From Candidatus Eiseniibacteriota bacterium (GTDB taxonomy: Bacteria; Arandabacterota; Arandabacteria; JAGLYR01), in contig JAGLYR010000258.1 of the NCBI GenBank assembly GCA_023132135.1, positions 1-7,272 of the forward strand: DNA of 7,272 bases, in the 5' to 3' direction. The position numbers were made by a program, and so were the translations under genes. The notes below the pieces were generated by a model. It was not told the origin of the DNA and did no database searches. It saw only the letters and a list, made by a program, of their open reading frames with translations. Within the stretch, counting starts at the first letter, position 1. Each line of letters opens with the position of its first letter. Shown here in pieces: positions 5,910 through 7,268 of this stretch.

Positions 5910-6085
5910 GGCGAAAAGCCGAGCACGTAAGCGGCCGGAAGCCGGTTCGGATATCAGTCTCTTGGCTCCGACGATTGTGGGGGTGTGGCCGGTCAGGAGG
6001 GTGGGAACCCGATTTCCGATTCACGATTTCCCATTCACTGATCTTCGCCGGCGGCCGATGGCGTCGCCAGGTACCCACAGGAAAT
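5910..6085. other. Intergenic region between the GlmU-like gene and the insertion sequence
   Basis: 176 bases with no gene I can support. There is a short CGGC/GCCG hairpin near 5931-5943 but no T-run, so I see no terminator for the upstream operon. It holds a 14-bp tandem duplication (6011-6038), and its last bases form the left flank of the IS110 element. Confidence 0.7.
6011..6038. repeat. 14-bp tandem direct repeat, two copies
   Basis: GATTTCCGATTCAC (6011-6024) is followed directly by GATTTCCCATTCAC (6025-6038); 13 of 14 positions agree. Read on the - strand, the second copy contains AATGGGAAA. The same nine bases occur on the + strand at 7264-7272, just beyond the far end of the insertion sequence. 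Confidence 0.9.
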
Positions 6086-6094
6086 AGCGACTGT
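6081..6094 (-). other. IS110 right end: last RE bases, CT core and right target flank
   Basis: On the - strand this 14-mer is the RE tip ACAGTCG (6094-6088), the CT core (6087-6086) and the right target ATTTC (6085-6081). The RE tip plus core is repeated exactly in the donor guide at 7093-7085. Confidence 0.75.
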
Positions 6095-6106
6095 GTTGAG
6101 TGTCAA
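6094..6106 (-). promoter_or_regulatory. RE half (-35) of a predicted circle-junction promoter
   Basis: The - strand holds a perfect TTGACA (6106-6101), overlapping the transposase stop codon, and TCAACA (6099-6094). The second is correctly spaced (17 nt) to TATGTT of the LE in the circular form; the first would be 24 nt away. Which of them works, if either, cannot be decided from sequence. Confidence 0.4.
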
Positions 6107-7044
6107 GCATTCTGAGATACCCACGTTTGATTGTTTTTGACCATAGCATTCAAGGTGATGAGCATTTTGCGCATACAGGCTGTGATTGCGACCTTGGGTT
6201 TCTTTCCGTTTTCGGTTAGGCGGAGATAGAATCGCCGGATGTCTGGGTTGTGCCGGATGGCAGTGAGGGTCGGCATGTAGAGTGCGGCGCGCACATCGCG
6301 TCGTCCCCCACGGATGGAGCGGTAGCCTCTCATCTTGCCGCTATCTTGGTTAAAGGGGGCGACGCCGACGAGGCTGGCAATCTGTCGCCGATTGAGTTGT
6401 CCCAGTTCGGGTAAGGTGACGACGAGTTTCAGAGTGGTCGTGCGGCCGATCCCGGGCGTACTCTCGATAACGGCAGCCTTCTCCACCCAGGAGTCGCTGG
6501 TCCGGATAGCGTCGTCGAGTTGACGGTCGATCTCCTGGAGTTGCCGAGCGATCAGGTCTAGGACCTCTTGGATGCTGCCGGCGATCTGATCTGCCTGGGC
6601 TCGGTGGAGACGATTCTGTTCAGCGGTTTGCATCCGGACCAGTTGACGTCGCCGCGCGACCAGGGCTTTGATTGAGCGTTCCCAGTTGGTGCCGACGGAC
6701 CGGGCCGGAGGGCGAATGGCCTCAGCAAATCTGGCGAGGATTTCAGCGTCGATTCGGTCGGTCTTCGCTAGTTGTCCGGTTGCTTTGGCGAAATCCCGGA
6801 CCTGGCGGGGGTTGACGACGGCCACGGTAAGGCCAGCGTCCTGGAGTTGGGCAGCCAGAGTGGTCCCGTAGCCACCGGTGGCCTCGAGGGTGATTAGGGT
6901 GGGATTGAGTTTCCTTAACCGAGTCAGGAGGGTCTCGACATCCTCCGCGTGGGTGGTATACTGGGATCGGTCGTGGGTCGGTAGGACATGGATATCGAGA
7001 GTGTCCTTGGCTACATCGACTCCGACAAACAACTTGCGATCCAT
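6103..7044 (-). CDS. IS110-family transposase (DEDD RuvC-like plus Transposase_20 serine domain)
   Basis: RNA-guided recombinase of the IS110 family, 313 residues and apparently intact. The N-terminal RuvC-like domain (about 1-155) has D10 in [14 protein letters not shown]54 in LEATGGYG, and D96 and D99 in [17 protein letters not shown], the DEDD tetrad. A helical, glutamine- and arginine-rich linker covers about 125-185. The C-terminal Transposase_20 domain has [13 protein letters not shown] (195-207) and [25 protein letters not shown] (224-248); S235 in the DSG motif is the expected nucleophile. These match the layout of the IS621 recombinase. The ATG at 7044 follows a strong site, AAGGAAGGGGG on the - strand (7060-7050). 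That site lies directly after the donor loop of the predicted bridge RNA, so both probably share one transcript. The stop codon overlaps a TTGACA. Confidence 0.95.
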
Positions 7045-7061
7045 GCGTGCCCCCTTCCTTG

Positions 7062-7093
7062 CTGATGCGGGCTCTTTGGGCCCAAGCGACTGT
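7062..7093 (-). ncRNA. Predicted donor-binding loop of the bridge RNA
   Basis: On the - strand the left donor guide ACAGTCGCT (7093-7085) is identical to the element's right end plus core (6094-6086), 9 of 9; the identity stops exactly at both borders. Then come T, GGGC (7083-7080), a 7-nt loop, GCCC (7072-7069) and the right donor guide GCATCAG (7068-7062). The last is complementary to the start of LE, CTATTGC (7261-7255), at 5 of 7 positions. The loop lies directly before the transposase ribosome site. Confidence 0.72.
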
Positions 7094-7128
7094 TCGGGGT
7101 GTACGTGTGGCAGCGGTGAAGGATCCTG

Positions 7129-7160
7129 CTATTTCACGGGCTCCATGCCCAAGGAAATGA
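7129..7160 (-). ncRNA. Predicted target-binding loop of the bridge RNA
   Basis: On the - strand the left target guide is TCATTTCCT (7160-7152). Next come T, GGGC (7150-7147), a 5-nt loop, GCCC (7141-7138), GT, then the right target guide GAAATAG (7135-7129). The left guide agrees with the left target plus core, CCATTTCCT (7268-7260), at 8 of 9 positions. The right guide is fully complementary to core plus right target, CTATTTC (6087-6081). An outer stem AAG(A)GATC with GATCCTT (around 7168-7161 and 7125-7119) would close the loop. Confidence 0.72.
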
Positions 7161-7177
7161 CGATCTCTTCATCGCCC

Positions 7178-7205
7178 GTTGCGGGCCCACCCACGGGCTC
7201 GCAAC
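7178..7205 (-). ncRNA. 5' stem-loop of the predicted bridge RNA
   Basis: On the - strand GTTGCG (7205-7200) pairs with CGCAAC (7183-7178) and GCCC (7198-7195) with GGGC (7188-7185), with one A/C mismatch between the two helices and a 6-nt loop. This is the strongest hairpin in the region and precedes the target loop, the place of the 5' stem-loop in IS621-type bridge RNAs. Confidence 0.65.
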
Positions 7206-7244
7206 TATATCCACCCCTTAATAGCACTCTTGGGAACTCGAGCC

Positions 7245-7250
7245 AACATA
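7245..7250 (-). promoter_or_regulatory. LE half (-10) of a predicted circle-junction promoter
   Basis: TATGTT on the - strand (7250-7245) matches the sigma70 -10 consensus at 4 of 6. When the RE and LE are joined at one CT core, TCAACA in the RE (6099-6094) lies exactly 17 nt upstream and matches the -35 at 4 of 6. Transcription would start near 7238, giving a bridge RNA of about 180 nt. IS110 circles are known to build such a promoter at the junction. Only the halves are seen here, so this is inference. Confidence 0.45.
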
Positions 7251-7254
7251 CAAG

Positions 7255-7268
7255 GCAATAGGAAATGG
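7255..7268 (-). other. IS110 left end: left target flank, CT core and start of LE
   Basis: On the - strand this 14-mer is the left target CCATTTC (7268-7262), the CT core (7261-7260) and the first LE bases ATTGC (7259-7255). The core position follows from the bridge-RNA guides. The shared CTATT at both ends would otherwise leave the border ambiguous by a few bases. Confidence 0.7.

Follow-up and report, generated by a model that had tools for sequence, protein, structure and literature searches.

The window analyzed in this study is a complete contig of 7272 bp (G000:C177) from an assembly of 3.4 Mb in 345 contigs. About 1.2 kb at its far end carries an intact open reading frame for an IS110 transposase/recombinase of 313 amino acids (6103–7044, minus strand), as evident by matches to Pfam, NCBIfam and PDB entries. 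The protein contains both IS110 Pfam domains (PF01548 and PF02371), yields 232.6 bits with the NCBIfam model for ‘IS110 family RNA-guided transposase’ (NF033542, cut-off 140), and matches only IS621 (8wt6, E 3e-39) and ISCro4 (9t56, E 1e-43) in the PDB. All five catalytic residues are retained: the RuvC-like D10, E54, D96 and D99 and the Tnp-domain serine S235 align with D11, E60, D102, D105 and S241 of IS621. This transposase is the sole PF02371 protein of the assembly, and the element is present as one copy in the genome. With the borders described below, it spans positions 6086–7254 of the minus strand (~1.17 kb), with ~210 nt of non-coding left end from the core to the start codon and a right end that extends 17 nt past the transposase stop codon. 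Positions 1–5909 (plus strand) hold ordinary housekeeping genes (the end of groEL, recognized by Pfam Cpn60_TCP1, an aminotransferase gene, folK, panB and panC), and by reading only we also recognized a deoxynucleoside-kinase-like open reading frame (2709–3356, plus strand) and a GlmU-like nucleotidyltransferase gene (~5140–5909, plus strand).

The element splits a dispersed host repeat. Its right flank (6009–6085) is the remainder of this repeat and its left flank (7255–7272) consists of host heptads; when joined, the flanks find 26 places in the same assembly. One end of the repeat bears (ATTTCCY)n heptads and the opposite end GGAAATC/GTGAATC units, with GTGGGTACCTGGCGACGCCATCGGCCG between them; it may be an intergenic repeat of a mobile or REP-like kind. 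The last 18 bp of the window lie past the left border, and the left flank beyond position 7272 rests on an exact overlap of 25 bp with the end of another contig (G000:C117:8668-8692). The assembly is broken at the insertion, perhaps because the population was mixed or a repeat was collapsed.

For comparison, 48 loci encoding relatives of the transposase were fetched, most of them ~45–53% identical, and both non-coding ends could be extracted for 37; IS621 served as a control for ends and guides. A search of 145 whole genomes with the transposase (E 1e-40) recovered, besides its own genome, one relative of 47% identity only, and therefore no orthologous empty site can be read.

The bridge RNA and its guides

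An earlier note on this DNA had described an IS110 element with a readable bridge RNA, and the family profiles and a covariance model bear this out. The model (R1) was built from 26 relatives, with the window left out, and matches the window end to end at 7188–7044 on the minus strand (84.8 bits, E 9.5e-22), which is its sole match in the 3.4-Mb genome. The covariance search that had been proposed as a check comes out in favor of the RNA. The matched region (7044–7188, minus strand) represents the bridge RNA core, with its target-binding and donor-binding loops, and R1 also finds IS621 (27.9 bits, E 2.6e-7). The consensus of the 26 relatives forms two stem-loops with internal guide loops. Compensatory two-sided changes are present in 16 of the 27 model pairs of this alignment, where 97.4% of the cells are paired compared with 30–46% in controls with slid partners, and the window RNA keeps all but a few of the R1 base pairs. 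A stem-loop predicted at 7178–7205 (minus strand) from the fold of 7240–7045, in the position that it has in IS621, is probably the 5′ part of the bridge RNA. In this same single-sequence fold, one target guide is paired to the other and further parts are joined, and the fold was therefore dropped for defining the guides.

A search of Rfam gave no match to a bridge-RNA family, and the nearest match was on the opposite strand. This is sX15 (RF02234, a Xanthomonadaceae sRNA), which aligns antisense to the bridge RNA at 7041–7189 (plus strand) with 32.2 bits against a gathering score of 55. On a Xanthomonas hortorum plasmid, an sX15 locus (L102 1513–1658, minus strand) is matched by the bridge-RNA model on the opposite strand (E 7.6e-16); its 1.5-kb flanks contain no annotated transposase, and the flank touches an annotated effector gene. 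Therefore, sX15 seems to correspond to an IS110 bridge-RNA locus read on its antisense strand. When sX15 was sought in 386 relatives there were no matches, and control genomes also gave none.

All four strings quoted in the earlier note are where it had placed them, and its comparisons are arithmetically right. Two of its pairings are true ones. The right target guide (RTG; GAAAUAG, 7129–7135, minus strand), read there as GAAATAG, is the reverse complement of CTATTTC at 6087–6081 and pairs with this core plus right flank at 7/7 positions. The left donor guide (LDG; ACAGUCGC(U), 7085–7093, minus strand) is identical to the right-end tip at 6094–6086 (9/9, ACAGTCGCT) and pairs 8/8 with the left donor. 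This left donor, ACAGTCGC, together with the right-end core CT (6087–6086), makes up the right border (6086–6094, minus strand), which is placed by the LDG match and by a conserved spacing from TTGACA. The variant ACAGTCGC is present in both the LDG and the right tip of the window element, and relatives show other variants in the same manner: in 30 of 34 elements the two segments are the same over all six non-core positions, neither having been used to define the other; four elements fail, and for two of these, both cyanobacterial, the simple search landed at a wrong place.

The right donor guide (RDG) had been taken to be GCATCAG (7068–7062), which was compared with CTATTGC (7261–7255) at 5/7 positions. 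This assignment does not hold. The RDG is AU-(CA)-G-CAAG, or AUCAGCAAG (7066–7058, minus strand), and its partner is the right donor CTTGTAT (7254–7248, minus strand), which includes the left-end core CT (7254–7253). The pairing follows the 2+5 discontiguous scheme of IS621, in which A157-U158, two flipped bases, G161 and C162-G165 form an RDG that pairs with right-donor positions 14–8 (PMC11208158). As a control, IS621 carries CTTGTAT directly at the core, the right tip ACAGTATCT and the RDG ATTTGCAAG. An AU-(N0-5)-RCAAG right donor guide is conserved in the relatives; the unpaired stretch measures 2 nt in the window as it does in IS621, and varies from 0 to 5 nt across relatives L025–L067.

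The left target guide (LTG; UCAUUUCCU, 7152–7160, minus strand) was located by its homologous position in an alignment of 30 elements. In this set, the RNA alignment supplied the guide positions and conserved motifs the borders, with the right border found by recurrence of the LDG downstream, a step that makes no use of the flanks. Guides and flanks agree at 276 of 330 non-core positions, compared with 123.5 ± 9.9 (maximum 168 in 20000 permutations) when flanks are exchanged between elements. After removal of similar guides, the 13 elements that are left give 121/143 compared with 51.9 ± 7.5, and 0 of 100000 permutations reach as high. Guides therefore track their own flanks across the relatives, as had been anticipated for a guided element. 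Four Nitrospira relatives (L031, L036, L066 and L067) have a near-identical left target guide, ATACGCCT or ATATGCCT, and the flanks of several of these resemble one another, as if a dispersed repeat were targeted there too.

Position of the left border

The bridge RNA had been said to fix both borders of the element, with the left border at a core CT at 7261–7260, an element start of CTATTGC and the site CCATTTCCTATTTC. Sequence comparison indicates that the left border is instead at the core CT at 7254–7253, seven bases, or one repeat unit, further in. CTTGTAT occurs in the left non-coding ends of 34 of 37 relatives, 160–330 nt ahead of the start codon, and the start of IS621, for which experiments have established the ends and the donor pairing, is CTTGTAT as well. 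A register scan of the LTG against the left flanks of 30 elements peaks at this motif, with a mean of 4.53 of 6 non-core positions, shoulders of 2.97 and 3.60 one base to either side, and background values elsewhere, including 2.07 at +7. No other border yields both the IS621-type RDG pairing and a promoter spacer of 17 bp.

The promoter becomes apparent when the ends are joined at the corrected border, which yields TTGACA-N17-TATGTT. The -35 box TTGACA (6101–6106, minus strand) overlaps the transposase stop codon and becomes part of a promoter in the circle only, and the -10 box TATGTT is at 7245–7250 (minus strand). TATNTN is present at the -10 place in 32 of 32 elements, and the -35 box matches TTGACA at 5.2 of 6 positions on average. 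From these junction sequences, a promoter is predicted to be reconstituted across the circle junction, which under the corrected border would contain ACAGTCGCTTGTATGTTGG.

The true left target plus core (7261–7253, CTATTGCCT) forms with the LTG six Watson-Crick pairs, one U-G wobble and two mismatches. The string TCATTTCCT (7160–7152) had been compared with CCATTTCCT (7268–7260), which it fits at 8/9 positions. This string is indeed the LTG, but the comparison was made 7 bp, or one unit, upstream of the real border, and it fits there too because the host site is composed of 7-bp units ATTTCCY. For the same reason, the reconstructed pre-insertion site scores 4/6 on the left and 5/5 on the right (9/11) in the register used, and 6/6 plus 4/5 (10/11) one unit upstream. 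Among 713 CT-anchored sites in window positions 1–6000, one scores as high as the corrected site, where 9/11 non-core positions match the guides.

The host repeat itself offers a further comparison. The target predicted from the RNA, TCATTTCCTATTTC, matches this repeat, and the predicted 13-mer CATTTCCTATTTC has 24 places with at most one mismatch, compared with one for the reversed control. Under the corrected border the empty site would read CCCATTTCCTATTGCCTATTTCCTGTGGGTACC, and the corresponding 21-bp junction CTATTGCCTATTTCCTGTGGG is present exactly in a repeat copy on contig C140, whereas for the junction claimed earlier, CCATTTCCTATTTCCTGTGGG, the closest host repeat copy differs at two positions. 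These copies, including that on C140, are other copies of the repeat, distinct from the orthologous empty site.

Interpretation and relation to known elements

The locus very probably contains an intact, single-copy IS110-group insertion sequence (6086–7254, minus strand) that works like IS621. The gene, the conserved RNA, the guide positions, the borders, the guide/flank tracking in relatives and the host repeat are all established by computation. By homology, transcription, RNA binding, catalysis and current mobility would be expected as well. The element would excise as a circle with its ends joined at the CT core, and the circle junction would rebuild a sigma70-like promoter, from which the bridge RNA in the left end would be transcribed as ~190 nt beginning near 7238. 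The donor loop of this RNA would pair with the joined ends of the element itself, and the target loop with TCATTTCCTATTTC-like DNA in the 7-bp-unit intergenic repeat of the host. The DEDD recombinase would then insert the circle at the paired target, ATTTCCTATTTC, with CTTGTAT/ACAGTCGCT as donor ends.

What speaks against this explanation is that the LTG leaves two mismatches at the true border, that the neighboring upstream register scores better, and that the element has a single copy whose left flank relies on the 25-bp contig overlap; in the window alone, the register scan is higher at +7 than at the CTTGTAT border. If the left border were at 7261–7260, as first proposed, with a circle junction containing ACAGTCGCTATTGCCTTGTATG, the strings are confirmed, the LTG fits at 8/9 positions and, with the right flank, all 11 counted non-core positions agree. 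However, the 7-bp periodicity of the site accounts for this extra fit, and the right donor CTATTGC would fit the RNA at only 5/7 positions, without the 2+5 scheme, where relatives have CTTGTAT. The promoter spacer would also widen to 24 bp, the guide/flank matching of the relatives is at background in this register, and the implied empty site has at least two mismatches in the host repeats; we consider this border very improbable. At least as hard to credit, and slightly the least probable of the readings, is that the last circle took seven extra bases (ATTGCCT) from an earlier site by way of the upstream CT and was inserted at CCATTTC-CT-ATTTCC with a perfect match. In this way the better fit of the left guide would be compatible with the conserved CTTGTAT, but a donor guide that accepts CTATTGC would be needed, and ATTGCCT followed by ATTTCCTGTGGGT is present as such in the uninterrupted host repeat on C140.

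It is unlikely, though less so than a displaced border, that the element has decayed, so that gene and RNA look intact, mobility is lost, and the guide mismatches are mutations that arose after insertion. The single genomic copy and the two left-guide mismatches are in keeping with decay. The open reading frame is intact, however, with the five catalytic residues all present, all but a few of the RNA-model base pairs are kept, the donor pairing and the promoter are perfect, and most natural IS110 targets differ from their guides at no more than two positions (PMC11208160). A further, rather unlikely reading is that the target guide is adapted to the periodic 7-bp host repeat, which would give guide and target several matching registers at the same time; with such freedom of register, the element could put up with mismatches of the left guide and expand across the intergenic repeat family of the host.

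The window element leaves the known mechanism unchanged. It demonstrates that a bridge RNA with a readable target and donor can be recognized from the raw sequence of a draft genome, and it adds a natural set of guides, target and donor from a sub-branch about half identical to its relatives. It also exposes a trap: guide matching alone can shift a border by one unit in periodic target repeats, and therefore the conserved right-donor motif is needed to place borders in such repeats.

As in the IS110 group, the long non-coding left end carries a structured RNA with two guide loops, of which the donor-binding loop pairs with the joined ends of the element around the CT core and the target-binding loop pairs with the insertion site (RTG 7/7, LTG six plus one wobble of 9). 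Elements of the IS1111 group, including those with seekRNAs, belong to the same superfamily and share the RNA-guided principle, but their RNA resides in the right end and they have long subterminal inverted repeats, whereas the RNA of the window element is in the left end (PMC11187229). Neither a right-end bridge RNA nor a right end longer than the left is found here. Because every computable feature of an IS621-type IS110 element is present and the IS1111 arrangement is not, the element joins a known class. Insertion sequences that enter dispersed extragenic palindromes are known (PMC1525189), also for the IS110 family (PMC11208160).

Among solved structures, ISCro4 (PDB 9t56) is the best match of the transposase (E 1.3e-43), as compared at the protein level. 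The IS110 elements of Nitrospira, Methylomirabilota, Gallionella/Sideroxydans and other MAGs (L025–L067), whose transposases are ~45–53% identical to that of the window, share the RNA architecture, the CTTGTAT left end and a ACAGTTGC-type right tip, but carry other target guides, each tracking its own flank. IS621 and the window element have in common a DEDD recombinase, a left-end bridge RNA, the CT core, the right donor CTTGTAT, a 2+5 RDG, a circle-junction promoter and insertion in a dispersed intergenic repeat (PMC11208160, PMC11208158). They are distant in sequence, the RNA model scores are 27.9 bits for IS621 and 84.8 for the window, and they differ in the left donor, which is ACAGTATC in IS621 and ACAGTCGC in the window, and in the target, in that IS621 is directed to REP whereas the window element is programmed to (ATTTCCY)n.
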